Source: Pseudoclavibacter helvolus (GTDB taxonomy: Bacteria; Actinomycetota; Actinomycetes; Actinomycetales; Microbacteriaceae). Taken from it: a DNA stretch of 64,000 nucleotides. A program made the position numbers and the translations under genes. The stretch spans positions 1 to 64,000 of the forward strand of contig NZ_JACHWJ010000006.1 of assembly GCF_014191305.1 (NCBI RefSeq). The letters are read 5' to 3'. The stretch's first letter is position 1. Each line of letters begins with the position of its first letter. The notes below the pieces were generated by a model. It worked only from the letters and a program-made list of their open reading frames with translations. It searched no databases and was not told where the DNA came from. This document shows positions 41,105 to 54,847 of this stretch, in pieces.

Positions 41105-42412
41105 TCAGCTCGCGAGGAGCGGGCGCTCGCTGCGGTCGGCGGCGACGAGTGCCGTGGCGAGGACGTGGATGCCCACCGCGATGTCGACGGCCTCGGTGAA
41201 CTCCTCCGGCACGTGGCTGCGTCCGCCGATGGAAGGCACGAAGATCATGCCCATGGGACCGAGGTGGGCGAGGTGCGCGGCGTCGTGGCCGGCGCCGGAC
41301 GGCACGGCCTCCCAGGTGTAGCCGAGCGCGTCGGCGGCCTCGCCGAGGAGGCGCTGCACGTCGGGGTCCGCCGCGACTGGGTCCTGGTCGTTGAGCCACT
41401 CGATCGCGGTCTCGACGCCGCGGAGTGCGGCGCCTGCAGCGATGTCCTCGGCGACGCGACGCTTCGCGCCGTGCAGCCACGACGCATCCACGCTGCGCAT
41501 CTCGGCCCAGATTCTGGCCTCGTCAGGGACGATGTTGAAGGAGCCGGACGACGACTCGATGCGGCCCGTTGTCGAGACCCCGTGGATGGGTGCGCCACAC
41601 GCCTCGCGCTCGATCGTGAGGATGGCCTCGGCGGCCGCGATGAGCGCATCCTGCCTGCCCTGCATCGGCATGGTGCCGGCGTGGTCGGCGCGGCCGGAGA
41701 ACGCAGCCATGAGGCGCTCGATGCCGGCGATCGCCGTGACGACGCCGATCTGCTTGCCACTCCGCTCGAGCTGAGGGCCCTGCTCGATGTGCAGCTCGAG
41801 GTAGGCGTGCAGCGAACCTGGCGCCCACGCCTGGCCGAGCGCGCCGCTCGTGTCGAGGCCGAAGCCCGTCATGGCGTCGCCGAGGCGCAGCGCCGAGTCG
41901 CCGTTGGTGCGCTCGAGGTGCTCCGGCAGCAGGAGCCCCGCGATCGAGCGCGACCCGATGCAGGAGACGCCGAACGAGTTCGCCTCCTCGCCGAGGAAGT
42001 CGACCACGTACAGGTCGCGGGAGAGCGTGATGCCCTCCTCGCGGAGACGCCGCGCGACCTCGATGCCCCCGAGCACGCCGACGATGCCGTCGTAGCGACC
42101 ACCCGCGCGCACGGTGTCGGTGTGGGAGCCCGTCATGAGCGGCTTGAGCGACGAGCTCGCGCCGCGCAGCACCCCCACGACGTTGCCGGCCGGGTCGATG
42201 TGCGCGTCGAGGCCGGCTGCGCGCATCCGGTCACGGACCCACTCGCGTCCAGCTCGATACGCGTCCGAGAACACACGCCGCGAGAAGCCGGGCTCGGCGC
42301 TCTCGACGAGCCCCGCGAGCTCCGTCAGGTCGGCGAGCACCCGCTGCTGGTCCGGGCGGAGTCGCGACGGGTCGGCGGCGCCGAGTAGCGCATCCGCGGT
42401 ATCAGCTGACAT
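41105..42412 (-). CDS. M20 amidohydrolase, N-carbamoyl-amino-acid hydrolase type (probable N-carbamoyl-glutamate hydrolase)
   Basis: 435 residues from ATG at 42410-42412, which overlaps the DUF917 stop by 11 nt. HyuC/allantoate amidohydrolase features: GSHTDTVRAGGRYDGIVG (metal His and bridging Asp), FLGEEANSFGVSCIGSR (Glu pair), ELHIEQGP, and the C-terminal AGHDAAHLA. The family hydrolyses ureido acids to amino acid, CO2 and NH3. Last gene of an operon with a hydantoinase-type enzyme and a urocanase homologue, so I infer N-carbamoyl-L-glutamate to L-glutamate. Allantoate hydrolase is the alternative, but no allantoin gene is nearby. Confidence 0.8.
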   Translation of the reverse strand: MSADTADALLGAADPSRLRPDQQRVLADLTELAGLVESAEPGFSRRVFSDAYRAGREWVRDRMRAAGLDAHIDPAGNVVGVLRGASSSLKPLMTGSHTDTVRAGGRYDGIVGVLGGIEVARRLREEGITLSRDLYVVDFLGEEANSFGVSCIGSRSIAGLLLPEHLERTNGDSALRLGDAMTGFGLDTSGALGQAWAPGSLHAYLELHIEQGPQLERSGKQIGVVTAIAGIERLMAAFSGRADHAGTMPMQGRQDALIAAAEAILTIEREACGAPIHGVSTTGRIESSSGSFNIVPDEARIWAEMRSVDASWLHGAKRRVAEDIAAGAALRGVETAIEWLNDQDPVAADPDVQRLLGEAADALGYTWEAVPSGAGHDAAHLAHLGPMGMIFVPSIGGRSHVPEEFTEAVDIAVGIHVLATALVAADRSERPLLAS

Positions 42413-43520
42413 AGCCGACCGTCCCGCCGACGAGGCCAGAGTCGCGGTACTTGAGGAAGTCGATGTCCATGATCTGCTCGATCTCTGCGAGCCCCGACTC
42501 GTCGATCGCCGACGAGGAGACGGGCAGTGCGGATGCTGGCACCGAGACGAGCACAACATCCTCGCCCTCGTAGGCGTCCTTCACCGCGACCGCCTCGCCG
42601 AGCTTCGGGTCGAGGATGATGATCGTGTCAGGGTAGGTCGCGATGCGCTCGCCGCCAGACTCGATGGCCATGTACTCGTTGAGGTACGGCACCGTGAAGT
42701 CGCCGATGCGGAACGTGCCGTGGTCCCACCCACCGTGCGTGTCGGTCGGCACCTCGAAGCCGAGCGGGCCGCTGGACACGACGGTGCCGCCGAGACGCTC
42801 GACAACCGCCTGCACAAATGCCTCCTGCTTGCCAGCGCCGCGCTTCCTCAGAGCCGCGGCCATGTCGCGACCAAGGTCGAGAGCAAGGGAGATCGAGCCG
42901 TGCGCGGCGTTCTCCTTGACGTAGCTCAGCTCGACGGGGTTCCGCGCCGCGGCGATGAAGCCGCCCGTCCGCACCGAGATGTCGCGCAGCACGTCGTCAC
43001 ACGTGTTGATCGTGCCCTTGTTCACCGACAGGAAGTGACCGTGCAGGGCGCGGTTGCCGCCGGAGACGACCTGCGTCGCGACGTAGCCCTCGCGTTCGGC
43101 GAGGCCAAGCGAGCCGAGCTTGCCGGTCGGGTGCGCGCGCACGTCTCCGGCGACGTCGAGCACCTTGACCCCGAGGACCGACGACTGGATCCAGCCGTTG
43201 AGGGTCGTCGAGTAGCCGTTCTGGGCGGTCATGACGGCCGAGATGGGCACATCCGTCGCCTTGATGAGCTCCTGCAGTGCGTGCACGTAGTCGATCGGGC
43301 GGATCTCCCAGTTCTTCGCTGCCGGGGCGCCGATGGCCGTGACCGTCGCCACCCAGCTGTCTTCCGGGAGCTCGTCGACGCTCGCGAGCACGGGCCGGTT
43401 CAGCTCGGTCGCCATGCGCCCCATGAGCTCGCCGTGGTGCTTCCACCCGCCGCCGCCGCATGCAAGCACACCGCCGCCGAGCACTCCGTGGATGGCGTCT
43501 TCCTGGGTCAGTTCACGCAC
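42402..43520 (-). CDS. DUF917-family protein (S-methyl-thiohydantoin desulfurase type)
   Basis: 372 residues from GTG at 43518-43520, overlapping the hydratase stop by 8 nt, with AAGGGA upstream. It matches PF06032: DAIHGVLGGGVLACGGGG at the start, IGAPAAKNWE, and GGNRALHGHFLSVNKGTINTCDD (conserved metal-ligand-type residues). Formerly of unknown function and annotated near hydantoinases, the family has since been linked, to my knowledge, to removal of sulfur from (S-methyl-)thiohydantoins. Placed between thiourocanate-hydratase-like and carbamoylase genes, it would convert the thiohydantoin propionate to hydantoin-5-propionate, releasing methanethiol or H2S. Confidence 0.75.
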   Translation of the reverse strand: MRELTQEDAIHGVLGGGVLACGGGGWKHHGELMGRMATELNRPVLASVDELPEDSWVATVTAIGAPAAKNWEIRPIDYVHALQELIKATDVPISAVMTAQNGYSTTLNGWIQSSVLGVKVLDVAGDVRAHPTGKLGSLGLAEREGYVATQVVSGGNRALHGHFLSVNKGTINTCDDVLRDISVRTGGFIAAARNPVELSYVKENAAHGSISLALDLGRDMAAALRKRGAGKQEAFVQAVVERLGGTVVSSGPLGFEVPTDTHGGWDHGTFRIGDFTVPYLNEYMAIESGGERIATYPDTIIILDPKLGEAVAVKDAYEGEDVVLVSVPASALPVSSSAIDESGLAEIEQIMDIDFLKYRDSGLVGGTVGYVS

Positions 43521-45393
43521 GTGCGTTCCCTTCTTCGGGGTCTGAGATGGCTGGGGTTGCTGAGGGTGCTGAAGCCGCCGGGTCGGCAGAAGCGGCTGGC
43601 CGAGCGGATGCGCCGCGCGCGGCAAGCCCGAGGGCCGCGAGGGGCGCGTCTCCGGTCTCGCCTCCCCGTTCGATGGCGACGCTTGCCTCCTCGTACCCGG
43701 CGGCCGCGTGCCGGAGAACGCCGAGGCCCGTGTCGAGGTCGAGCGCGAGGCGCAAGCGCTCGCGAGTCTCCGCCTTGCCGTCGGCGACGATGGAGACGCC
43801 CGCGGACTGCATCCACCCCGTGTAGCCACCACCGCCGGAGTGGATGGCGACGAGGTCGGCGCCCGCCGTGGACAGCAGCATGGCGTCGAGGAGCGGCCAG
43901 TCGGTGACGCCGTCTGAACCGTCGCGCATGCCCTCCGTGCCGATGCGCGGGTGCGTCATGCCGGCCGAGTCGAGGTGGTCGCGGCTGAAGAGCACGGGAG
44001 CTGTGAGGCGGCCATCGGCGACAAGCTCGTTTGCGGCCTGCGCGAGTCGAGACCGCTCGCCGTGCCCGATCCAGCAGGAGCGTGCTGGCAGGCCCTGCTG
44101 CGGCACGTGCACGCCCGCGAGCGCGAGCCACTCGGCGATCTCGGGGCGGTCGGGGAAGAGCGACGACGCGAGCGCGTCCATCGTGAGCTGGTCTTCGACG
44201 TCGCCGGACAGGCACACCCAGCGGAAGGGGCCGATGCCCCGTGCGAAGAGCGGCCGAAGGTACGCCTCCATGAAGCCCGGGATGCGGTTGACCCGCTCCG
44301 TCTCGCTCTCCCCGAGGTGCTCGAGCGCCTTGACGCGCAGGTTGTTGCCGTTCTCGAACGCGATCGATCCGCGTTCCTGCAGCGTGAGCATGGCCTCGAC
44401 CTGCTTGGCCATGGATGCGCGTGCCAGGGCCTCGACGCGCTCCGGCTCGGTTTCGCGGGCCGCGACCCACTCGTCGAGCGTGTATTCGAGGGGCACGTAG
44501 CCGTAGCGTGCGTCGTGCGCCGCGGTCTGGTCGGTGACGATATCTGGCGTGATGCCAAGCTCGGCGAGCTCCGCGAAGACGGCTGCCGCGTTGGCGCGCA
44601 GCGCGACGGCCGCGGGGATTCCCTCGGCGCGGGCCGCCTCGATGAGCGCAAGTGCGTCGTCGAGGGTTGAAGCCAGCACGTCGATGCCGCCGACCGCGAG
44701 CGCGCGGTCGATCTTGACCTGGTCGATCTCGATCGTGAGCGACGACAGGCCGAGGATGCGAGCCGAGATCGGCTGGGCTGATCCCATGCCGCCGAGGCCA
44801 GCCGTGAGCATCCACCGACCTTCTGCTCGCGCGTCGTAGTGCTGGACAAGCACCTCGCGCAGCAGCTCGTACGTGCCCTGGAGCACGCCCTGGCGTCCGA
44901 TGTACTGCCAAGCGGCGGCGGTCAGGCCGCCCCAGATGGTCTGGCCGGCGCGGTATCGCTCGTAGAAGCGGTCGCTCGTCGCCCAGTTGCCGACGGTGTT
45001 GTTGACGGCGGAGAGCACCATGGGCGAGTCCTGCTTCGTCGACATGATGCCGACCGCCGCGCCCGTCTGCAGGATGAGCGTCTCGGCCTCGTCGAGCTCG
45101 AGCAGCGAGTTCACGATGCGGCAGGCCTCGTCCCAGTTGCGGGCGGCCTTGCCGAGCGAGGCGTAGACGATGAGTTCTGAAGCGTTCTCACCGACCTCGA
45201 GCACGTTCTCGAACATGCGCAGCAGGCCCTCGGCCCGCCAGTTCTTCGCGCGCAGCTTCGTGCCGCGTTCGGCGACAATCGGCTGCATGCCCCTGGCCAG
45301 GATGGGGCTCGCGAGGGGCGCGGATGCCGGGGGCGGGGTCGCGCCAGCGGCACCGCTGGTCGGGGCTGCCGGGGTCGTGGCTGCTTCAGGCAC
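43513..45393 (-). CDS. Urocanate-hydratase-family enzyme (probable thiourocanate / S-methyl-thiourocanate hydratase)
   Basis: 626 residues; GTG at 45391-45393 overlaps the IclR stop by 8 nt and has GGAG upstream. NAD motif GLGGMGSAQPIS, catalytic-loop GLPARSCWIGHGER (active-site Cys retained), GRDHLDS and GLGVLRHAAAGYE are urocanase signatures. The pocket segment HSGGGGYTGWMQSAG differs from the HHGGGVGMGFSQHAG of true HutU, losing one His of the HH pair, and a ~45-residue Ala/Pro tail is added. With no hutI or hutG nearby and a DUF917 gene next door, a sulfur-bearing urocanate is the likely substrate. Ordinary HutU activity remains possible. Confidence 0.8.
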   Translation of the reverse strand: MPEAATTPAAPTSGAAGATPPPASAPLASPILARGMQPIVAERGTKLRAKNWRAEGLLRMFENVLEVGENASELIVYASLGKAARNWDEACRIVNSLLELDEAETLILQTGAAVGIMSTKQDSPMVLSAVNNTVGNWATSDRFYERYRAGQTIWGGLTAAAWQYIGRQGVLQGTYELLREVLVQHYDARAEGRWMLTAGLGGMGSAQPISARILGLSSLTIEIDQVKIDRALAVGGIDVLASTLDDALALIEAARAEGIPAAVALRANAAAVFAELAELGITPDIVTDQTAAHDARYGYVPLEYTLDEWVAARETEPERVEALARASMAKQVEAMLTLQERGSIAFENGNNLRVKALEHLGESETERVNRIPGFMEAYLRPLFARGIGPFRWVCLSGDVEDQLTMDALASSLFPDRPEIAEWLALAGVHVPQQGLPARSCWIGHGERSRLAQAANELVADGRLTAPVLFSRDHLDSAGMTHPRIGTEGMRDGSDGVTDWPLLDAMLLSTAGADLVAIHSGGGGYTGWMQSAGVSIVADGKAETRERLRLALDLDTGLGVLRHAAAGYEEASVAIERGGETGDAPLAALGLAARGASARPAASADPAASAPSATPAISDPEEGNARA

Positions 45394-46219
45394 TCTGGTC
45401 GCTCCAGACTTCGAGGTCCACGTTCGATGGCAGTTTCGCGGCGAGCTCTGCAGCCCCCTGCTTGAGGAGCGCGATGCGCTCATCCAGTGCCCCAGTCTGC
45501 CGCTCGTCACCGACAAGAGACAGGGAGCACAGCACTCGACCGCCCGCGAAGACGGGCACGCCGATGCCGACCATGCCTGGCGTGATCTGCCCGTACGAGA
45601 CAGCGTGGCCCTCGGCCCGCACCTGGCGCAGGTACGGCTCGATCATCTCGGGACTCATTGTCGCGGTTGTGTACGCGCGCAGGCCGCCGGAGAGCAGCTC
45701 GCGCACGACCTTCTTCGGCGCGTACGCGAGCAGCGGCAGTGCAGTCGCACCGGCGTAGAGGCTGCGCACCTTGCCGCGTCCGAACGGGATGCGGTGCTGC
45801 GGATGCGCGTACGACACCTCGAGGCACACGGCGGTGATGTGCACCCGCACGGCGAGAATCGCGGTCATCCCGGTGAGCTCGCGGAGGCGCCGCAGCACGG
45901 GGGCCGCGTAACGCACGAGGTGCGGTGAAGCGTCGTCGCTCTCCGCGAGGCGGCTCGAGGGCATGAGGTAGCCGTCGATCTCGATCGCGAAGCCCGCATC
46001 CCTGAGCACCGTCACGTAGCGGTACACAGTCGACAGCGGCATGCCGAGCTCGCTGCTGATCTCGGAGATCTTGAGGCGCCCGCGCCCCTGAATGAGCTGC
46101 AGGATCTCGAGGCCTCGGTGCAGCGACTTGTACGCCGCGCCACCAGCACCGCCAGAGACCGGCGCACCCCCGGAGATGTGCTGGCCGTTCGGGTCAGCCT
46201 TTGGTCGAATGTCACTCAT
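45386..46219 (-). CDS. IclR-family transcriptional regulator
   Basis: 277 residues. N-terminal winged helix (YKSLHRGLEILQLIQGRGRLKISEISSELGMPLSTVYRYVTVLRDAG) and a C-terminal effector domain (YAGATALPLLAYAPKKVVRELL, VSYGQITPGMVGIGVPVFAGG). It lies second in the operon, two bases after the amidohydrolase and overlapping the hydratase, so it is made with the enzymes. It probably senses a pathway metabolite and binds the nested palindromes at 47621-47657 upstream of the operon. Confidence 0.88.
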   Translation of the reverse strand: MSDIRPKADPNGQHISGGAPVSGGAGGAAYKSLHRGLEILQLIQGRGRLKISEISSELGMPLSTVYRYVTVLRDAGFAIEIDGYLMPSSRLAESDDASPHLVRYAAPVLRRLRELTGMTAILAVRVHITAVCLEVSYAHPQHRIPFGRGKVRSLYAGATALPLLAYAPKKVVRELLSGGLRAYTTATMSPEMIEPYLRQVRAEGHAVSYGQITPGMVGIGVPVFAGGRVLCSLSLVGDERQTGALDERIALLKQGAAELAAKLPSNVDLEVWSDQSA

Positions 46220-46221
46220 GG

Positions 46222-47610
46222 TCAGACCAGCACCTCTCCCCTGCCCATGCCGGCGAGGAGCCCCGCCGTCTCTGAGTACACGAGCTCGCCGCGCGAGAAC
46301 GTGTGCGTCACACTGCCACCGGGCGACATGCCCTCGTATGGCGTCCAGCCTGCGTTCGACAGCATCCGGTCGAGCTCGATGGATGCGTCGCCCGGCGTGA
46401 AGACGACGATGTCGGCGTCCTTGCCCACCTCGAGCGCCCCCTTGCGCGCGTCGAGGCCGTACCGGCGCGCGGGGGCGATCGTGAGCGCATCCACCGCCTG
46501 CGACAGCAGGCCCTCTGACGGGTCACGGCGCAGTGCCCCGCCGAGCGTCGCCGCGACGAGCGTCTGGACGCCAGGCGCTCCCGAACTGTTGTCGAGCATG
46601 ACCTCGTGCTCCTTCAACTCCCGCGACCACGGCGCGTGGTCGGAGCTGACGACGCTCACGGCGCCGCGGCCGATGCGGTCCCACAGCCCTTCGCGAGCGG
46701 CGGCGTCACGCAACGGCGGGTTGATCTTCAGGTGCCCACGCTGCGTCTCGAGGTCGTCCTGGGTGAAGGTCAGGTAGTGCGGGCACGTCTCGAGCGTCAC
46801 GTCGGCGCCCTGCGAGCGGTACCACTCGACGAGGTCGACGCTGCGGGGCAGCGACAGGTGGCACACGTGCAAGCGCGCGCCCGTGTTCGCGGCGACCTCG
46901 AGCGCGGTCAGCACGCCGAGCGTCTCCGAGACCGGCGGCCGTGAGCGAGAGTGCGACTGCGGGTCAGTACTGCCGGCAGCGCGCTCTTCCTGGAGCAGCG
47001 ACTGGATGATCTCGTTGTTCTCGGCGTGCGTGCACAGCGTGCGGCCCGCATCCCGGACAGCGGCCATGACGCTCAGCAGCTCACGGTCGTTGATGCGGGG
47101 GAAGCGCGTCTCGTGCGTGTGGAAGAGCGACACTTTGAAGCCGACGGCGCCGACTTCCGCGAGCTCGCCGGCAGCGCGCCAGCCTCCGCCCGGCGCGAGG
47201 GTGCCGAGGAGCGCGACGTCGATATGCGCCTCGTCGTTTGCGAGGTCCTGCTTCACGCGGAGCTTGTCGAGGCTGTTGATCGGGCCGGTGCCGTCGTATG
47301 GCATCTCCACGATCGTCGTCACGCCACCGGCTGCCGCGGCACGCGTCGACGCGGCGATGCCCTCACCCCCGTGCGAGAGGGAGTGCACGTGCGCATCCAC
47401 CACACCGGGCAGCACGTAGGAATCCCCGACGTCCACGACGCGCACGCCAGCGGGCGCAGGCGAGCGCGAGGCTCCCGTGTGCACCGCGACGATGCGCGGG
47501 CCAGCGGCCCAGACCTCGCCTGGCCCCCAGACGCCACGCGCGTCCCGAATTCTCCCGCGAACGATCAGGGTCGCGACGAGGTCTTCCTGCGGCTGCACGG
47601 CTGGCTCCAT
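46222..47610 (-). CDS. Cyclic amidohydrolase, hydantoinase/dihydropyrimidinase/allantoinase type (probable hydantoin-5-propionate hydrolase)
   Basis: 462 residues. HxH motif DAHVHSLSHG, carboxylated-Lys candidate in GFKVSLFHTHE, later metal His in CTHAENN and CHLSLPRS, and catalytic Asp in SSDHAPW. These are the residues of dinuclear cyclic-amide hydrolases. The ATG at 47608-47610 is preceded at six bases by TATTCT and has no ribosome-binding site, so a leaderless mRNA is likely; a GTG two codons earlier is possible. First gene of the operon leading to the M20 hydrolase, it would open hydantoin-5-propionate to N-carbamoyl-glutamate. Confidence 0.82.
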   Translation of the reverse strand: MEPAVQPQEDLVATLIVRGRIRDARGVWGPGEVWAAGPRIVAVHTGASRSPAPAGVRVVDVGDSYVLPGVVDAHVHSLSHGGEGIAASTRAAAAGGVTTIVEMPYDGTGPINSLDKLRVKQDLANDEAHIDVALLGTLAPGGGWRAAGELAEVGAVGFKVSLFHTHETRFPRINDRELLSVMAAVRDAGRTLCTHAENNEIIQSLLQEERAAGSTDPQSHSRSRPPVSETLGVLTALEVAANTGARLHVCHLSLPRSVDLVEWYRSQGADVTLETCPHYLTFTQDDLETQRGHLKINPPLRDAAAREGLWDRIGRGAVSVVSSDHAPWSRELKEHEVMLDNSSGAPGVQTLVAATLGGALRRDPSEGLLSQAVDALTIAPARRYGLDARKGALEVGKDADIVVFTPGDASIELDRMLSNAGWTPYEGMSPGGSVTHTFSRGELVYSETAGLLAGMGRGEVLV

Positions 47611-47616
47611 GCACAC

Positions 47617-47657
47617 AGAATAAGAACGTCACCGACGTTTGGGCTACTACGTTCTTA
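47617..47657 (-). promoter_or_regulatory. Operon promoter with nested palindromes (candidate IclR operator)
   Basis: Outer inverted repeat TAAGAACGT/ACGTTCTTA (47621-47629, 47649-47657) and a perfect inner palindrome AACGTC-ACC-GACGTT (47625-47639). The minus-strand -10 TATTCT (47617-47622) overlaps its edge, so binding would block RNA polymerase. Confidence 0.6.
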
Positions 47658-47698
47658 GATCACGGGACGAATCGCGGTGATCCGAGGCGGCTTGCTGA

Positions 47699-48181
47699 TC
47701 AGCGGATGCGGTGGTGGTCGAAGACGATGCTCGTGCGCGTGGAGGCGACGGCCGGGTGCGTCGAGAGGTGCGCCACCACGAACTCCCGAACGTCGTTCGA
47801 GTCGCGCACGGCAACGTGGACGATGAAGTCCTCAGAGCCGCCGAGGAAGAAGATCTGCACGACCTCTGGCAGCGCCCGCATCTCCTCCGCGAAATGCGCG
47901 AGCTCCTGCCGCTTCCCCGAGCGGATGTTGACGCTGATGAGCGCCTGCAACGCGAGGCCGAGCTGGGGCAGGCCAACGTCCGCCGTGAACCTCGTGATGA
48001 CGCCGCGGTCGACCAGCGAGCGCACGCGCGCGATGCACGTCGACTGCGCAATGCCGACGGCGCTCGCGAGCTGCGTGTTCGACTGCCGCGAGTTGGCCTG
48101 CAGCAGCTCGACGAGCTGACGGTCGATGTTGTCGAGCGCCCCCGCTTCAGCATCCCGAAGTTCCTTCGGCGTTCCAGCCAT
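47699..48181 (-). CDS. Lrp/AsnC-family regulator (AldR-like)
   Basis: 160 residues. HTH IDRQLVELLQANSRQSNTQLASAVGIAQSTCIARV, then an RAM/asparagine-sensing domain (ALISVNIRSGKRQELAHFAEEMRALPEVVQIFFLGG). Divergent from ald with 139 bp between starts, the usual layout for an Lrp activator of alanine dehydrogenase that responds to alanine or other amino acids. Confidence 0.9.
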   Translation of the reverse strand: MAGTPKELRDAEAGALDNIDRQLVELLQANSRQSNTQLASAVGIAQSTCIARVRSLVDRGVITRFTADVGLPQLGLALQALISVNIRSGKRQELAHFAEEMRALPEVVQIFFLGGSEDFIVHVAVRDSNDVREFVVAHLSTHPAVASTRTSIVFDHHRIR

Positions 48182-48212
48182 GCTGATCCCCTCTGATCAC
48201 AGATTCCTACCA

Positions 48213-48270
48213 ATTCTGCCCCAGATGCCGAGGTTTCTGCGGCGTTCAACCTGTTCGAAACACTTTCTGC
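48213..48270. promoter_or_regulatory. Candidate Lrp/AldR binding repeats
   Basis: Three direct copies of (A/T)TTCTGC at 48213-48219, 48234-48240 and 48264-48270, 21 and 30 bp apart (two and three helical turns), between the divergent lrp and ald genes. Confidence 0.45.
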
Positions 48271-48320
48271 GCATGATTTCGGAAGAACCGAACCGAACGA
48301 GCACGAACAATGAGGTCATC

Positions 48321-49442
48321 ATGCGCATCGGGATCCCTGCAGAGATCAAGAACAACGAGAACCGCGTCGCTATCACGCCAGCCGGAGTGCACGAACTCGT
48401 GCGGCACGGCCACGACGTCTTCATCGAAGCCGGCGCCGGGCTCGGCTCTGGCAACACCGACGACGACTACGCAACGGCTGGAGCGAGCATCCTCGCCACC
48501 GCCGACGAGGTGTGGGCACGCGCTGAGCTGCTCCTCAAGGTGAAGGAGCCCATCGCCTCCGAGTACCGCCACATGCGCCCCGACCTCGTTCTCTTCACCT
48601 ACCTGCACCTCGCCGCCGATCGCGCGCAGACGGAAGCGCTCGCGAACGCGGGCACCACGGCCATCGCCTACGAGACGGTGCAGCTGCCCAACCGCTCGCT
48701 GCCGCTGCTGACCCCCATGAGCGAGGTCGCGGGTCGCCTCGCGACGCAGGTCGGCGCGTATCACCTCATGAAGGCCGCCGGCGGGCGGGGCATGCTGCTC
48801 GGCGGCGTGCCCGGCACCCCGAAGGCGAAAGTGGTTGTCATCGGCGGCGGAGTCGCGGGCGAGCACGCCGCCGCAAACGCCGTCGGCATGGGCGCCGACG
48901 TCACCATCATCGACCTCAACATCCCGCGCCTTCGCGAGCTCGAGGTGCAGTTCCAGGGCAAGATCCAGACGCGCGCGTCGTCGGCGTACGAGATCGCGGC
49001 GCAGCTCGCCGAGGCTGACCTCGTTGTCGGGTCTGTTCTCATCCCGGGTGCCGCCGCCCCGAAGCTTGTCACCGACGAGATGGTGGCCGGCATGAAGAAG
49101 GGCTCGGTGCTCGTCGACATCGCGATCGACCAGGGCGGATGCTTCGAGGGCTCCCACCCGACGACGCACGACGACCCGACGTTCCCCGTGCACAACTCGA
49201 TCTACTACTGCGTCGCCAACATGCCGGGCGCCGTGCCGGAGACGTCGACGCGCGCGCTCACCAACGCGACGCTGCCCTACGTCACCGCCATCGCCGACAA
49301 GGGCTGGAAGCTTGCCATGCAGGAGAACCCCGCGCTCGCGCTCGGCCTCAACGTGCACGGCGGACACATCACCAACCGCGGCGTCGCGACCGCGCTCGGC
49401 CTCGAGTACCGCCCCGTAGAAGAGGTGCTCGCCGCCGAGTAA
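48321..49442 (+). CDS. ald: Alanine dehydrogenase
   Basis: 373 residues from ATG at 48321-48323 with GAGG seven bases upstream. [23 protein letters not shown] is the family start; Lys and His of the active site lie in LLKVKEP and [12 protein letters not shown] motif [10 protein letters not shown]; and [18 protein letters not shown] near the end. It interconverts alanine and pyruvate plus ammonia with NAD. It interrupts the two catabolic operons on the opposite strand and could assimilate or recycle the ammonia they release. Confidence 0.95.
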
Positions 49443-49461
49443 CCGCCCGGCCGCCGCGGGG

Positions 49462-50232
49462 CTAGGCGCTTGTTGTGGCGACGCTCGTGGAGGCGACCGT
49501 CGCGCCGGAGCCAGAGCCGGAGCCAGAGCCGGAGCCCAAGCCCGCCCGGGAGCTGGAGCTTCCCGCCGCCTTGGGGCCACGCTTCTTGCGGCCTGGGACG
49601 ACGAGGCGCCCGAGCAGCGCGAGGAGTCCGTCGACGACCAGCGCGAGGACCGTGACGAGGATGGCGCCGACGAGCACGCGTCCGTAGTCGGTGACGGCGA
49701 GGCCGTCAAAGATGTAGCGTCCGAGGCCGCCCAGGTTGACGTAGGCGGCGATCGTCGCGGTGGCGATGACCTGCAGTACGGCGCTGCGGAGGCCGGCGAC
49801 GATGAGCGGCATGGCGTTGGGCAGTTCGACCTGCCACACGATCTGCCACTCGGTCATGCCCATGGCGCGCGCAGCATCCACCGTCGAACGGCTGACGTTG
49901 GCGACGCCCGAGTACACGCCGGCGAGGAGCGGCGGCACGGCGAGCACAACAAGCGCGATGACGGGCGGGAACAGGCCGAGGCCCATGAGCAACACGAGCA
50001 GCGTCATGAGGCCGAGGCTGGGGAGGGCGCGCAGCACGTTGGCAGTGGCGACGATGAAGGTCGTTCCCTTGCCGGTGTGCCCGATGATGAGGCCGAGCGG
50101 GAACGCGACGACCGCCGCGAGCGCAACGGCGAGGAGCGAGTACCAGAGGTGCTCGCCGACGCGGGCGGGGATGCTCGCGGAACCGACCCAGTTGGCCGGG
50201 TCGAGGAAGTAGGCCAGCATTTCGTTGAACAT
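49462..50232 (-). CDS. OpuC/EgtUV-like ABC importer permease 2
   Basis: 256 residues with six hydrophobic helices and the permease-ATPase coupling loop DAARAMGMTEWQIVWQVELPNAMP. The last ~45 residues are Arg/Lys- and then Gly/Ser-rich (GSGSGSGSG), encoded by alternating GAGCC(A/G) hexamers at 49507-49542. ATG shares one base with the stop of permease 1. Paired permeases of this type serve glycine betaine, choline, carnitine or ergothioneine importers. Confidence 0.85.
   Translation of the reverse strand: MFNEMLAYFLDPANWVGSASIPARVGEHLWYSLLAVALAAVVAFPLGLIIGHTGKGTTFIVATANVLRALPSLGLMTLLVLLMGLGLFPPVIALVVLAVPPLLAGVYSGVANVSRSTVDAARAMGMTEWQIVWQVELPNAMPLIVAGLRSAVLQVIATATIAAYVNLGGLGRYIFDGLAVTDYGRVLVGAILVTVLALVVDGLLALLGRLVVPGRKKRGPKAAGSSSSRAGLGSGSGSGSGSGATVASTSVATTSA
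49507..49542. repeat. Hexanucleotide repeat in permease 2 tail
   Basis: Alternating GGAGCC and AGAGCC units (six in tandem) code for Gly-Ser pairs on the minus strand. Length changes would preserve frame. Confidence 0.8.
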
Positions 50233-50957
50233 CAGACGTTCCCCTTGCCGATCACGGTGTCGAGCATGGCAGTCTCAGTGCGCTCGTTTGGGGTGCGCTT
50301 CGACGCGCGTTTGGCCTTCACGCGGCCGCTGCGCAGCCACGGGGTGGTGGCAACGCCGATGAGGGCGATGACGCGGTCGAAGACAAACGCGAGCACCAGG
50401 ATCGTGATGATGCCGGCGAAGATCTGGTCCGGGTAGTCGCGCTGGAACCCGGCCGTGAACAGCTGGCCGAGCCCGCCGACGCCGATGACGGCGCCGACCG
50501 AGACGAGCGAGACGTTCGTGACGGCGACAACTCGGAGGCCGGCGACGAGCACCGGGATGGCGAGCGGCAGCTCGATTTCGATGACGCGCTTGATCGAGGA
50601 GTAGCCGATGGCGCTCGACGCGTCCTTCACGTCGGCGGGCACCGCGTCGAGCGACTCGAGCACGGTGCGGATGAGCAGCGCCGTCGAGTAGAGCGTCAGC
50701 GCGATGACGACGTTGAGCGGGCTGATGATGGGCGTGCCCACGATCGATGGGATGACGACGAAGAGCGCGAGGGACGGGATCGTGAACACGATGCTCGCGA
50801 CGACGATCGCGATCGCCCGCCCGCGGGGGCGGCCGACGAGGAGCATCCCGACCGGCAGCGCGATGACGAGCCCGAGGACCGTCGGCACGACGGCGAGCAC
50901 CGTGTGCTGGATGATGATGGGCCAGACCGTGTCCCAGTTGGCGATGAGCCAGTTCAT
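50232..50957 (-). CDS. OpuC/EgtUV-like ABC importer permease 1
   Basis: 241 residues from ATG at 50955-50957 (overlaps the ATPase stop by 4 nt). Five to six helices, with the coupling loop DASSAIGYSSIKRVIEIELPLAIP and VGAVIGVGGLGQLFTAGFQRDYPDQ, as in OpuCB/OpuCD-type permeases. With permease 2 it forms the heterodimeric channel. Confidence 0.87.
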   Translation of the reverse strand: MNWLIANWDTVWPIIIQHTVLAVVPTVLGLVIALPVGMLLVGRPRGRAIAIVVASIVFTIPSLALFVVIPSIVGTPIISPLNVVIALTLYSTALLIRTVLESLDAVPADVKDASSAIGYSSIKRVIEIELPLAIPVLVAGLRVVAVTNVSLVSVGAVIGVGGLGQLFTAGFQRDYPDQIFAGIITILVLAFVFDRVIALIGVATTPWLRSGRVKAKRASKRTPNERTETAMLDTVIGKGNV

Positions 50958-52018
50958 GACCGATCGCCGCTCGCTTCGGCGACGCGGGCGAACACGGTCT
51001 CGCCGCGCACGATGCCTGCCGCGACGCCGGCCTCGTCGACGACCACCGCGAGGCTGGCCGGGGAGGCGAGCACCGCGTCCAGCGACCGGCGCAGGTTGTC
51101 GTCGAGGGTGACGACGGCGCCGACGGGGACGCGCAGGGAGCTCGCGCGGTGCAGCCAGGCGTCCGGGCGGCCGTTGTCGTCGACGGCGAGCGACCACTCG
51201 GAGGTGTGCGGGTCGAGGCTGATGATTCCGGCCACGGGCTCGGCGAGGGGCTCTGCGGTGAGGGACGCGTCCCGGAAGGTGAGCGCGCGGTAGCCGCGGT
51301 CCTTCGAGATCATGCTCGACACGAACGTGTTCGCGGGCCTCGTCATGACCTCCTCGGCGGCCGCGTACTGGTGCAGCACGCCACCTGGGCCGAAGACGGC
51401 GATCTTGTCGCCGAGGATGAGCGCCTCGTCGATGTCGTGCGTCACGAACACGATGGTCTTCTTGAGCTCGCGCTGCAGGCGGATCATCTCCTGCTGCAGT
51501 TCGTCACGCACGACGGGGTCGACGGCGCTGAACGGCTCGTCCATGAGCAGGATGGGCGGGTCGGCCGCGAGGGCACGGGCCACGCCCACGCGCTGCTGCT
51601 GCCCGCCGGACAGGTCCGCGGGGTAGCGGTGCACAAGCTCGGGGCGGAGGCGGACACGCTCGATGGCGTCCATCGCCTTCGCGCGCGCCTCCTTCGCGGG
51701 CACGCCCTTGAGGCGCAGCACGGTCGCGACGTTGTCGAGCACCGTGCGGTGTGGGAAGAGGCCCGCGTTCTGGATGACGTAGCCGATGCCAAGGCGCAGC
51801 TGCGTGGAAGGAACGTGGGCGACGTCCTTGCCCGCGACCGTGATGCGTCCGCTCGAAGCGTCGATCATCTTGTTGATCATGCGCATCGACGTGGTCTTGC
51901 CGCAGCCACTCGGGCCGACGAAGGCTGTGAACGACCCTTCCTCGATGTTGAGGCTGAGGTCGTTGACCGCGGTGGTGCCGTCCGGATACGTCTTGGTGAC
52001 GCTCTCGAAGGTGATCAT
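50954..52018 (-). CDS. OpuC/EgtV-like ABC importer ATPase
   Basis: 354 residues. Walker A GPSGCGKTT, Q-loop YVIQNAGLFPHRT, signature LSGGQQQR, Walker B ILLMDEPFSAVDP and FVTHDIDEAL, all typical of OpuCA/ProV. The C-terminal ~100 residues contain one CBS-like unit (LDDNLRRSLDAVLASPASLAVVVDEAGVAAGIV) rather than a clear CBS pair. Begins 49 nt after the lyase, so the transporter is in one operon with the first enzyme of the pathway. Confidence 0.9.
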   Translation of the reverse strand: MITFESVTKTYPDGTTAVNDLSLNIEEGSFTAFVGPSGCGKTTSMRMINKMIDASSGRITVAGKDVAHVPSTQLRLGIGYVIQNAGLFPHRTVLDNVATVLRLKGVPAKEARAKAMDAIERVRLRPELVHRYPADLSGGQQQRVGVARALAADPPILLMDEPFSAVDPVVRDELQQEMIRLQRELKKTIVFVTHDIDEALILGDKIAVFGPGGVLHQYAAAEEVMTRPANTFVSSMISKDRGYRALTFRDASLTAEPLAEPVAGIISLDPHTSEWSLAVDDNGRPDAWLHRASSLRVPVGAVVTLDDNLRRSLDAVLASPASLAVVVDEAGVAAGIVRGETVFARVAEASGDRS

Positions 52019-52067
52019 GCTGCTCCTTGGCTGGGGACGGGGTGATCTTGGTGTGTTAGCTGGCAGC

Positions 52068-53747
52068 TCACGCGTCCTGCACGTGCTCGCTCAGCTCGGC
52101 GATGTCGGCACGCACGCGGTCGATTCGCTGAGAGGTCATGATTGCGGGGTCGTTCAGGGCAAGCGTTTCACGGATGCGCTTGGAGAGCTGCACCACTAGC
52201 GGGGCGCGGTCCTTCATGCTCGGCGCGGGGGCGGCGACGCCGACGCCAACGGCGAGGAGCGCCTCGATCGCGAGGAGGCGCTCGGCCGCCTCGAGGCTGT
52301 CCTCGAGGAGGCGCACGGCGAGGTAGCCCTGCGCGTTGTGGTCCTCGACGCCATCGCCGACGACGCCGCCGAGGTGCGAGACGGGCGCCGCAAGCTGCTG
52401 CAGCCGCGCCATGAGCGACGAGGCCGTGTTGGCGAGGATGACCGGCACAAACGGATGCTCGGCGTCGTCGATCGACAGGACCTGCTCGACGAGCGAGCGC
52501 TCGGAGCGCAGGCGCCGGATCATGAGGGAGCAGCGTCGCTCGCTCATGATGCCGAAGTGGGCAAGCAGGAGCCTGACCGAGTCGGCCGTGATGGCCATCT
52601 GGATGGTCGAGAAGTTGCCGTTCGAGATGATGACGTCGTTCTCGACGTCGATGAACGGGTTCTCGCTGCGCGCGTTCAGCTCGACCGTGACCGACTCGCG
52701 CAGCACATCCGCCTGCTCGATGAGCGTGCCGTGCACCTGCGGAACGGTGCGCATGGAGAGCGGGTCCTGCAGGGAACCGGCCGTGGCGGGGCCGTAGGCG
52801 CGGCTCGAGCCGAGCAGGGAGCGGAAGCGGGCGGCGGCGCGGATCTGTCCCGGGTGCGGGCGGGCCGCGACGACCTTCTCCTGGAAGCCCTTGACGCTGC
52901 CGTTGAGGGCGTCGAAGGTGTGCGCGACGACGAGGTCGGCGGATGCGGTGAAGCGGTCGAGGCGCACCGAGGTGAGGGCGGCGATGCCGACGGAGGCGGC
53001 GTTGGCGCCGACGAGCGCGAGCCCGTCCTTCGCGGCGAGCTCGAGCGGGACGAGGCCGGCGGTCGCGAGGGCCTCCCTGGCGGGGGCGGTCTGCGTGCCG
53101 GTCTCGTCGAGGACCCGCCCGCGCCCGACAAGCACGTTGCCGACGGCGGCCAGCATGGACAGGTCGGCCGCGCCGACGGACCCCTCAGACGGGATGGCGG
53201 GAGTGACGCCGCACTCGAGGAGGCACCGAAGCCCCTCGAACAGCGCCGTCGTCGCACCGGAGTTGCCCTGCGCCATGACGGCGAGGCGCGCGAGCATGAC
53301 CGAGCGGGCCTCGATGGGCGTCAGGTTCTTGCCGACGGCCGCGTCATGAGAGGCGAGCACAAACAGCTGGAACGCGTGCTGCAGCTCCTCTGGGATCTCC
53401 TGGTCGCGCAGCGGTCCGAGGCCGCGGTTCACGCCGTACGCGGGTTCGCCGCGGGCCATGACGCTCTCGATGACGGATCGCGCCTCTGCGAGCCGGACCC
53501 TGACGTGCGGGTCGATGTCGAGGTGCCCAACCGTCACGGCAAGGCGTTCCAGGATGCGCGGCGTCATTCGGTCGCGGCCGATGACGAAGCTCGTCAGCGG
53601 CAGCGACGATTCGGCACTCGTGCCCGCGAGCGCGTTGACTCCGGCGGACGACGCATCCGTGACGGGCCGCTTGCCTTGCGCGGCGCGCTTGTTTGGGCGC
53701 ATCGTTGGGCGCACATGCGGACGTTCGGCGTCTGCGTGCTGCTGCAT
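52068..53747 (-). CDS. HAL-superfamily lyase lacking the MIO tripeptide (probable ergothionase)
   Basis: 559 residues from ATG at 53745-53747; histidine ammonia lyases have ~510, so the true start may be further in, but must precede LPLTSFVIG. HAL fold signatures are clear: PAYGVNRGLGPLR (Tyr base), RPHPGQ, SLQDPLSMRTVPQVHG, NARSENPFIDVEND, GNFSTIQMAI. The MIO-forming site of HAL, GSVGASGDLAPL, reads GSVGAADLSML (residues ~189-199): Ser-Gly is missing, so no MIO electrophile can form. Ergothionases are MIO-free relatives that expel trimethylamine from ergothioneine. Encoded between a betaine-type binding protein and its ATPase. Confidence 0.8.
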   Translation of the reverse strand: MQQHADAERPHVRPTMRPNKRAAQGKRPVTDASSAGVNALAGTSAESSLPLTSFVIGRDRMTPRILERLAVTVGHLDIDPHVRVRLAEARSVIESVMARGEPAYGVNRGLGPLRDQEIPEELQHAFQLFVLASHDAAVGKNLTPIEARSVMLARLAVMAQGNSGATTALFEGLRCLLECGVTPAIPSEGSVGAADLSMLAAVGNVLVGRGRVLDETGTQTAPAREALATAGLVPLELAAKDGLALVGANAASVGIAALTSVRLDRFTASADLVVAHTFDALNGSVKGFQEKVVAARPHPGQIRAAARFRSLLGSSRAYGPATAGSLQDPLSMRTVPQVHGTLIEQADVLRESVTVELNARSENPFIDVENDVIISNGNFSTIQMAITADSVRLLLAHFGIMSERRCSLMIRRLRSERSLVEQVLSIDDAEHPFVPVILANTASSLMARLQQLAAPVSHLGGVVGDGVEDHNAQGYLAVRLLEDSLEAAERLLAIEALLAVGVGVAAPAPSMKDRAPLVVQLSKRIRETLALNDPAIMTSQRIDRVRADIAELSEHVQDA

Positions 53748-53842
53748 CCGGAACTCGCTTCTGGTGGATCTTGAAAACTGGAGGGTTGAAGAAAGCGGGG
53801 GAAGTTGGTTCGGGGGCGTGTTCGGTGCTGCTGCCGGGAGGA

Positions 53843-53877
53843 GTGGATGCGGGTGGGTCGAGCCCACCCGCATCCAC
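53843..53877 (-). terminator. Perfect hairpin between the binding-protein and lyase genes
   Basis: A 15-bp perfect stem (53843-53857 with 53863-53877), 5-nt loop, 32 nt after the binding-protein stop. Probably an attenuator that leaves the binding protein expressed above the lyase and transporter genes that follow. Confidence 0.7.
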
Positions 53878-53908
53878 CCTCTCGGCGGTCTTGCGGGTTC
53901 TTCGGTGC

Positions 53909-54847
53909 CTAGGCGCCGAGGAGACCCTTCTCCGTGAGCCAGTCGGTCGCGGCCTTGGTGGGCTCGACCTTCTCTTCACCGGAGACGCGCGTGTTGAGCG
54001 CGATGAGCTCGTCGGTCGTCAGCTGCGCCGAGATGGCGTCGATGACTTCAGCGACCTCAGGGGTGAGCTTCTCGGTGCTGCCGATGGGGATGACCTGCTG
54101 CGCCGGGAAGTTGTTCTTCGGGTCCTCGAGCACAACCAGGTCGTTCTCGACGATCGCGGGCGACGTGGTGAAGATGTTCGCGACCTGCACCTGTCCGCTC
54201 ACGAGGGCGTCGACCGTTGCTGGTCCGCCACCGTCAGCGATGGGGGTGAATGCGGCAGGCTCGACGCCGTAGTTCGCCTTGAGACCCGGGAGGCCCTGCG
54301 GGCGTTCCTGGAACTCGGCCGGGGCGCCGTAGGTGATCTCGGCGTTGTGGGCGGCGAGGTCGGCGATGGTCGTCAGGTTCCACTTCTCAGCGGTCTCCTT
54401 CGTGACGACAACCGCGTCCTTGTCCTCGGCCTCGGCGGGGGTGAGGCCCGTGAGGCCCTCCGTCTCGAGCGCCGCGGTGAGGTTCGTGTTGATGGTCTCC
54501 GCGTCCGTCGTCTCCGCCTCGGGGTCGAGGAAGATGAGGAGGTTGCCCGTGTAGTCGGGGATCAGGTCGATCGATCCATCGGACAGCGCGGGGATATAGG
54601 CCTCGCGAGAGCCGATGTTGAACTGGGTCTCGACCGTGAACCCGGCATCCTTGAGCGCTTCCGCGTACAGGTTGCCGATGATCTCCGACTCCGGGAAGTT
54701 CGCCGAGGAGACGACGATCGTGTCACCGGATGCGGCTCCATCGTCGGTTCCGCCCGCGGCGGTGTCGGTCGGGTTGGAGCAGGCCGAGAGGAGGCCGATC
54801 GCTGCAAGCGCAGCGATGCCTCCGGTGATCAGACGCTTCTTCTGCAT
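53909..54847 (-). CDS. OpuCC/ProX-family substrate-binding lipoprotein (EgtU-like)
   Basis: 312 residues from ATG at 54845-54847 (AGGGGAA upstream). Signal peptide MQKKRLITGGIAALAAIGLLSAC with lipobox LSAC. The PF04069 domain shows SSANFPESEIIGNLYAEALKDAG, REAYIPALSDGSIDLIPDYTGNLL and EFQERPQGLPGLKANYG, a hallmark of quaternary-amine binding proteins. First gene of the transporter operon. Ergothioneine, a betaine, is the inferred ligand from the neighbouring lyase. Confidence 0.88.
   Translation of the reverse strand: MQKKRLITGGIAALAAIGLLSACSNPTDTAAGGTDDGAASGDTIVVSSANFPESEIIGNLYAEALKDAGFTVETQFNIGSREAYIPALSDGSIDLIPDYTGNLLIFLDPEAETTDAETINTNLTAALETEGLTGLTPAEAEDKDAVVVTKETAEKWNLTTIADLAAHNAEITYGAPAEFQERPQGLPGLKANYGVEPAAFTPIADGGGPATVDALVSGQVQVANIFTTSPAIVENDLVVLEDPKNNFPAQQVIPIGSTEKLTPEVAEVIDAISAQLTTDELIALNTRVSGEEKVEPTKAATDWLTEKGLLGA

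Follow-up and report, generated by a model that had tools for sequence, protein, structure and literature searches.

The window analysed here is a stretch of 64,000 nucleotides on contig C6 of the 3.84 Mb genome of Pseudoclavibacter helvolus. It carries ten genes, all on the minus strand and arranged as two operon-like runs, which together resemble a pathway for the breakdown of ergothioneine. This compound, a mushroom antioxidant, is a product of fungi and certain bacteria that animals ingest, and its persistence in soil and gut depends on its degraders. An earlier note, made from the letters alone, had described the gene order, motifs and overlaps of this region and the coordinates of its five enzymes. 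This description stands: the ten open reading frames were confirmed at the following positions and Pfam agrees for 10 out of 10 proteins. Run A (49462-54847, minus strand) comprises a substrate-binding protein (SBP), a lyase, an ATPase and two permeases, and run B (41105-47610, minus strand) comprises ErtD, an IclR regulator, a hydratase, a desulfurase and ErtE.

53909-54847, minus strand: SBP lipoprotein of an OpuC/ProX-type ABC importer (PF04069, OpuAC, E 1e-53)
52068-53747, minus strand: lyase of the histidine ammonia-lyase (HAL) family without the 4-methylideneimidazole-5-one (MIO) triad, putative ergothionase (trimethylamine lyase) (PF00221, Lyase_aromatic, E 3e-109)
50954-52018, minus strand: importer ATPase (Pfam ABC_tran; best NCBIfam match proV, 291 bits, cut-off 326.6)
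50232-50960, minus strand: importer permease (PF00528, BPD_transp_1)
49462-50232, minus strand: importer permease (PF00528, BPD_transp_1)
46222-47610, minus strand: putative hydantoin-5-propionate amidohydrolase, ErtD-like (Pfam Amidohydro_1; NF058538)
45386-46219, minus strand: IclR-family regulator inside run B (PF01614 and PF09339)
43513-45393, minus strand: putative thiourocanate hydratase (Pfam Urocanase N, Rossmann and C; NF058530; tree)
42402-43520, minus strand: putative thiohydantoin desulfurase, S-Me-THD N and C, formerly DUF917 (PF06032/PF20906; NF058529; tree)
41105-42412, minus strand: putative N-carbamoyl-L-glutamate amidohydrolase, ErtE-like (Pfam Peptidase_M20; NF058540)
47621-47657, no strand: candidate operator upstream of ErtD, an inverted repeat TAAGAACGT-N19-ACGTTCTTA

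Run B is tightly packed, with overlaps of 11, 8 and 8 bases and one gap of 2, and the desulfurase, hydratase and ErtE genes overlap within it. The ATPase and permease genes of run A also overlap, and gaps of 161 and 49 bases separate the SBP from the lyase and the lyase from the ATPase. Near-identical clusters are present in named Pseudoclavibacter records. The gene order is the same in four loci of the genus (L018-L021), over the extent of each stretch: L018 stops at its contig end, and the second run of its genome is on a separate contig (L089). These loci come from the same genomes as G004, G005, G006 and G008 and are not to be counted as extra ones. The ratio of nonsynonymous to synonymous substitution rates (dN/dS) is 0.03-0.13 for six cluster genes compared with two species, the desulfurase over part of its length. 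In a genome of another genus (G165, locus L083), hydratase, desulfurase, SBP, lyase, ATPase and two permeases follow each other in a single run, which ties run A to run B. The conserved order, the low dN/dS and this single run argue that the cluster is more than a chance association.

The enzyme families of all five steps of the ergothioneine catabolism that Beliaeva, Leisinger and Seebeck reportedly described in 2021 for firmicutes and proteobacteria are present in the window, in two adjacent runs. We consider it very probable, judging from sequence, that the two-run cluster serves to scavenge ergothioneine, importing it and degrading it to glutamate. The importer would take up ergothioneine, and the lyase would convert it to thiourocanate, presumably releasing trimethylamine rather than ammonia, because of the loss of its MIO triad and its gene context. 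The hydratase, of urocanase type, would turn thiourocanate into the thiohydantoin, the DUF917 enzyme would swap sulfur for oxygen to yield hydantoin propionate and sulfide, ErtD would open the hydantoin to N-carbamoyl-glutamate, and ErtE would free L-glutamate, CO2 and ammonia; these four roles are predicted from the closest named families. The chemistry of these steps is reportedly set out in the same 2021 paper from the Seebeck group. This series of intermediates, with a dedicated importer, had been proposed in the earlier note, and it appears to be the best-supported reading. The cluster differs from the known five-step route in being actinobacterial, in having four modelled enzymes below curated cut-offs, a lyase that the best tree places in a different MIO-less clade and an OpuC-type importer in the lyase run, and in carrying an IclR gene inside the late run. 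We infer that the chemical route is probably the known one at every step, served by a lyase of what is probably another line and by another importer.

NCBIfam release 20 holds models for the ergothioneine route, whose curated cut-offs we used as thresholds. The window hydratase ranks the thiourocanate hydratase model NF058530 (692.8 bits) over the S-methyl model (608.2) and HutU (581.4). Among the controls, the genome's own HutU ranks hutU over the thiourocanate model (915.3 versus 646.6), as do urocanases beside hut-type genes in L181 (930.7 versus 672) and L108 (867.7 versus 623.8), and an Agrobacterium plasmid enzyme ranks the S-methyl model, whose cut-off it passes, over the thiourocanate one (975.4 versus 724.9). 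The phylogenetic check suggested in the earlier note is favourable for this enzyme: in a 16-row tree, a branch with 98/96 support places it on the thiourocanate side, with another Pseudoclavibacter, G165, Deinococcus, six proteobacterial cluster enzymes and 7ned, which we take to be a characterised thiourocanate hydratase. It groups with 7ned and not with HutU, three rows of which form the opposite side together with two S-methyl enzymes. Both 7ned and 8q9u/8q9v, the latter presumably S-methyl enzymes, are annotated in the PDB as urocanate hydratase. Forcing the window's three hydratase rows with HutU gives a p value of 0.028 in the approximately unbiased test (p-AU), and with the S-methyl rows 0.023, tests that are weakened because the branch of these three rows is long. 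Seven thiourocanate hydratase rows and three HutU rows are each invariant, with different letters, at 45 columns; there the window enzyme has 27 thiourocanate-type letters, 4 HutU-type and 14 of neither type; at 24 columns separating thiourocanate from S-methyl enzymes, it has 15 of the former and 3 of the latter.

The desulfurase points the same way, with 341.7 bits for the thiohydantoin desulfurase model NF058529 and 237.2 for the S-methyl model. Ten cluster-linked desulfurases, including that of the window, form one group (97/94) in an 18-row tree, and a p-AU of 0.044 results when the window's rows are forced to join the S-methyl row. The earlier note had left open whether the substrate is the thione or its S-methyl form. 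Model ranking, diagnostic columns and tree tests favour the thione. An S-methyl-ergothioneine substrate, with sulfur leaving as methanethiol, could be invoked because the Pfam families carry the name of the S-methyl enzyme and because an S-methyl cluster does exist (L099, Agrobacterium pAt). We nevertheless regard it as improbable, given S-methyl scores 85 bits lower for the hydratase and 104 bits lower for the desulfurase, the diagnostic columns and the two p-AU values, with the reservation that the trees had two S-methyl hydratases and one S-methyl desulfurase only.

The lyase lacks the Ala-Ser-Gly triad that forms MIO: GSVG-AADL replaces GSVGASGDL, and the loop is one residue shorter. The position of N195, in what we take to be the numbering of Pseudomonas HutH, is changed, with an Asn two residues further on, and Y280 is a Leu. 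The solved ergothionase of Treponema denticola (6s7j) is alike in all these respects: loss of the triad, the one-residue shortening, the changed N195 position with the displaced Asn, and Leu in place of Tyr280. The triad is also lost in the lyases found at 5 of 7 ert-like plasmid clusters. A 2026 paper describes ergothionase as devoid of the MIO cofactor, and as restricted to a limited number of genera, divergent homologues not being accounted for in its analysis (PMC13405746). The window lyase scores 287.2 bits with the HutH model and does not reach its cut-off of 539.15, which the genome's own, triad-bearing HutH exceeds. No NCBIfam match names ergothionase for this lyase or for four other MIO-less lyases that were scanned. 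In a 35-row tree, the lyases of the window and G165 fall within a 16-row actinobacterial MIO-less clade (98/96), and the HutH clade (100/99) includes two MIO-less plasmid lyases (Klebsiella and Aureimonas). Grouping the window lyase with the MIO-bearing HutH rows is rejected (p-AU 0.0002), as is a single clade of all ert lyases (p 0.0065). Forcing the window lyase into the clade of the solved ergothionase gives a p-AU of 0.057. A single clade of all MIO-less lyases is not rejected (p 0.38) but is absent from the best tree, which therefore needs at least two changes of the MIO trait. It is more likely that the lyase, although built like an ergothionase, is by descent a separate MIO-less line. 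A structure model, with a mean predicted local distance difference test score of 45 from 7 sequences, was not used.

The SBP brought up acetylcholine and nicotine sensor proteins first in phmmer, with EgtUC close behind. EgtU, also a quaternary-amine-type ABC importer, is marked by G244 and a Phe at 293 with an aromatic cage, according to a study that lists its ligand residues (PMC9732360). At the EgtU positions, the window SBP, which is encoded by a separate gene, differs at K242 (Ala), G244 (Phe), T275 (Arg), F293 (Tyr), Y337 (Ala), Y341 (Asp), D381 (Gln) and Y419 (Phe), and it keeps E375 and R379. These pocket residues (G244F, F293Y, Y337A, Y341D) rule out that the importer is EgtU. Of the OpuC/EgtUV-like importer suggested earlier, the OpuC/ProX-like character is retained and the EgtU identity is not.

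We matched importer relatives in 565 plasmid records and opened five of the best six. Three of the five loci (L107, L108 and L110) have a triad-less lyase beside urocanase or hut genes, L109 has relatives of ErtD and ErtE, and L111 has neither combination. The hut-linked OpuC-type importers of the Aureimonas (L107) and Klebsiella (L110) plasmids are close to that of the window (SBP 41-42%, ATPase 49%), and their SBPs share its letters at K242, G244, T275, F293, Y337, Y341, E375 and R379; they differ in being coupled to hut genes and not to desulfurase and ErtD/ErtE. We take the window importer to be a putative histidine-betaine importer accompanying a betaine lyase, and the recurrence of its relatives beside MIO-less lyases in hut clusters suggests a swappable histidine-betaine module. 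Among 20 loci selected by their lyase (L168-L187), 3 carry the importer: two have hut genes as well, and in the other a partial urocanase match lies at the contig end. One of the three also has a normal MIO-bearing HutH.

The hut genes of the genome lie elsewhere. Contig C5 has a second HAL with a Cys-Ser-Gly triad and a HutH score of 611.6, over the cut-off. Contig C1 has an IclR-type gene, hutU (915.3), an M20 gene of allantoate-amidohydrolase type, a formimidoylglutamate deiminase (hutF, 491.1, cut-off 362) and hutI (328, cut-off 298.15). The window lyase and hydratase are therefore extra to a separate hutH/hutU/hutF/hutI set. The reported absence of hutI, hutG and hutF holds for the ten cluster genes (the window's open reading frames were not all scanned), with hutF and hutI present on another contig of the genome. 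Co-regulated hutI or hutG had been named as an argument against the proposed route; the hut genes lie apart, in loci that each have an IclR-type gene of their own next to them. That histidine or hercynine is degraded here via urocanate, with the sulfur-linked genes as bystanders, is very unlikely: the lyase and hydratase do belong to the HAL and urocanase families and some importer relatives do lie in hut operons, but the ten genes include no late hut genes, the hydratase is thiourocanate-like, the genes for desulfurase, hydratase and ErtE overlap within a single run, and the genome has another hutH and hutU. The genome, which is 97% complete, gave no match to PF10017 (EgtD family), which makes an external source of the substrate probable. 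The cell would thus keep its own histidine pathway apart from the breakdown of ergothioneine of probably external origin.

Several results weigh against the ergothioneine route. The four enzymes with Ert models all have a model of this route as best match, yet each remains under its curated cut-off: 692.8 bits against 930 for the hydratase, 341.7 against 440 for the desulfurase, 407.1 against 600 for the ErtD-like amidohydrolase (NF058538) and 508 against 520 for the ErtE-like M20 protein (NF058540). The hydratase, at 581.4 bits, passes the HutU cut-off (375). The cut-off of 930 is also missed by the enzymes of G165 (715.6) and Deinococcus (766.9), and it is passed by a Paracoccus plasmid enzyme (1045.7). 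The lyase matches the solved ergothionase no better than HutH in phmmer (162.9 and 162.2), and in the best tree it is excluded from the solved-ergothionase clade (98/96; 6s7j, Paracoccus, Burkholderia and Shinella). Grouping it with the MIO-bearing HutH rows plus the MIO-less rows of Klebsiella and Aureimonas is not rejected (p 0.077), nor is a grouping with HutH in a sparser tree (p 0.42), so that 2 of 3 tests do not separate it significantly from the HutH side. For this enzyme the phylogenetic check favours the earlier reading with these limits: it stands apart from MIO-bearing HutH in the dense tree, and outside the solved ergothionase clade. The SBP pocket is unlike that of EgtU, the two runs have no operator in common (no shared 15-mer with up to 2 mismatches on both strands), and G165 is without close ErtD or ErtE (best 31% and 29%), so that the route there would stop at hydantoin propionate. 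The scores and the SBP pocket could also fit a related thio- or seleno-histidine betaine (e.g., selenoneine) or a partly methylated thiohistidine as the true substrate, to which we give very little credence, because nothing found in the sequence points to such a compound and the divergence of the lineage explains the low scores equally well.

A search with the desulfurase gave matches over 500 bits in 6 of the 398 family-sample genomes, namely G165 and five of Pseudoclavibacter with the window's own among them; in the phylum sample of 396 the window's genome was the 1 that matched. The lyase is found at 97-100% in 5 of 10 genomes of the genus. Ten plasmid loci were opened on the basis of the desulfurase. 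ErtD, ErtE, desulfurase and hydratase are all present in seven of them (Deinococcus, two Paracoccus, Shinella, Rhizobium, Thalassospira and Burkholderia), and five of the seven have a lyase within the stretch; their neighbours vary, e.g., TRAP transporters. The others are L099, of S-methyl type, and L097 and L098, without a hydratase match. The route in Actinobacteria was not named in the titles or abstract openings searched, most subscription papers being outside this coverage. What is new is most likely a cluster in a lineage not named for this route in that literature, with a first enzyme and an importer unlike those studied. Such a complete set is easily missed in an actinobacterium, since its hydratase passes only the HutU cut-off and its lyase has no match that bears the name of ergothionase.

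The IclR regulator probably controls at least its own run. The inverted repeat upstream of ErtD is partly kept in Pseudoclavibacter: the upstream regions, aligned and read by eye, show a paired T-A to C-G change in L020 and L021, and L019 is incompletely paired. No counterpart of this repeat was found upstream of the SBP. Of the IclR control proposed earlier, the position of the gene agrees, and an operator common to both runs does not appear. The regulator is not unique to this cluster, since an IclR gene is also found in a plasmid cluster of Deinococcus. The stretch that separates the two runs holds an alanine dehydrogenase on the plus strand (end 49442) and a Lrp/AsnC regulator on the minus strand (47699-48181). 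We dropped the dehydrogenase as a pathway member; it adjoins the Lrp/AsnC gene, and the G165 stretch shows nothing that matches it.

MIO-less lyases extend beyond this cluster. We searched the 398 family and 396 phylum genomes for the lyase, taking best matches only, 30 loci each. Among 54 new loci (L114-L167), the triad is missing from 39, each in a different genome outside Pseudoclavibacter, and present in 15, counts that describe a sample of best scorers and no frequency. Tyr at 280 is found in none of the 39 and in all of the 15; an Arthrobacter lyase outside this set lacks the triad and keeps the Tyr. Loss of the triad is a simple letter test that singles out HAL relatives which may release trimethylamine, and it makes the wider group directly testable. 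We tentatively propose, at rather less than even odds, that the HAL superfamily contains a large and mostly undescribed group of MIO-less betaine lyases that act as interchangeable entry enzymes in actinobacteria. With one OpuC-type histidine-betaine importer, they would lead hercynine into hut and ergothioneine into ert; in two families of one order, that of the window and a neighbour, they would combine with an NtaA/DmoA-type flavin mononucleotide (FMN) monooxygenase and a homologue of cysteine synthase to open a further, oxidative sulfur route from ergothioneine.

Other loci showed further arrangements. G165 has a second copy of the importer (L083:18281-19900, and L102), and just before it 47 residues match the C-terminus of the desulfurase, which may be what is left of a duplicated cluster. 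L099 has an S-methyl hydratase and an S-methyl desulfurase, both over cut-off, and no lyase match in the stretch; it also encodes a betaine-type permease, a molybdopterin S/N-oxide reductase and a member of the glutathione S-transferase family. A Rhizobium jaguaris importer locus with ErtD and ErtE relatives was set aside, as no hydratase, desulfurase or lyase matched in the 44 kb opened. In the Klebsiella oxytoca (L110:4468-9338) and Aureimonas (L107) plasmids, hut operons hold an OpuC-type importer and a HutH-like lyase that has lost the Ala-Ser-Gly triad through a three-residue deletion, a candidate hercynine lyase; the Klebsiella module has matches in 214 of the 72,556 plasmid records, and in 164 of these the match covers 80% of the module or more. 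In L183, from the same phylum, a normal MIO-bearing HutH, a MIO-less lyase and the importer share one hut-type cluster, as if two entry enzymes fed one pathway. Three Streptomyces loci (L022-L024) have MIO-less HAL relatives with a Phe at Tyr280 and no other ert match in the stretch. In 13 of the 20 lyase loci opened (L168-L177, L184, L186 and L187; 8 genera, from the window's family except for one from the same order), the MIO-less lyase adjoins an NtaA/DmoA-type FMN monooxygenase. Twelve of them add a homologue of cysteine synthase/cystathionine beta-synthase, possibly an oxidative route of sulfur scavenging, and L174 has instead UbiD, IclR and a 51% ErtE.

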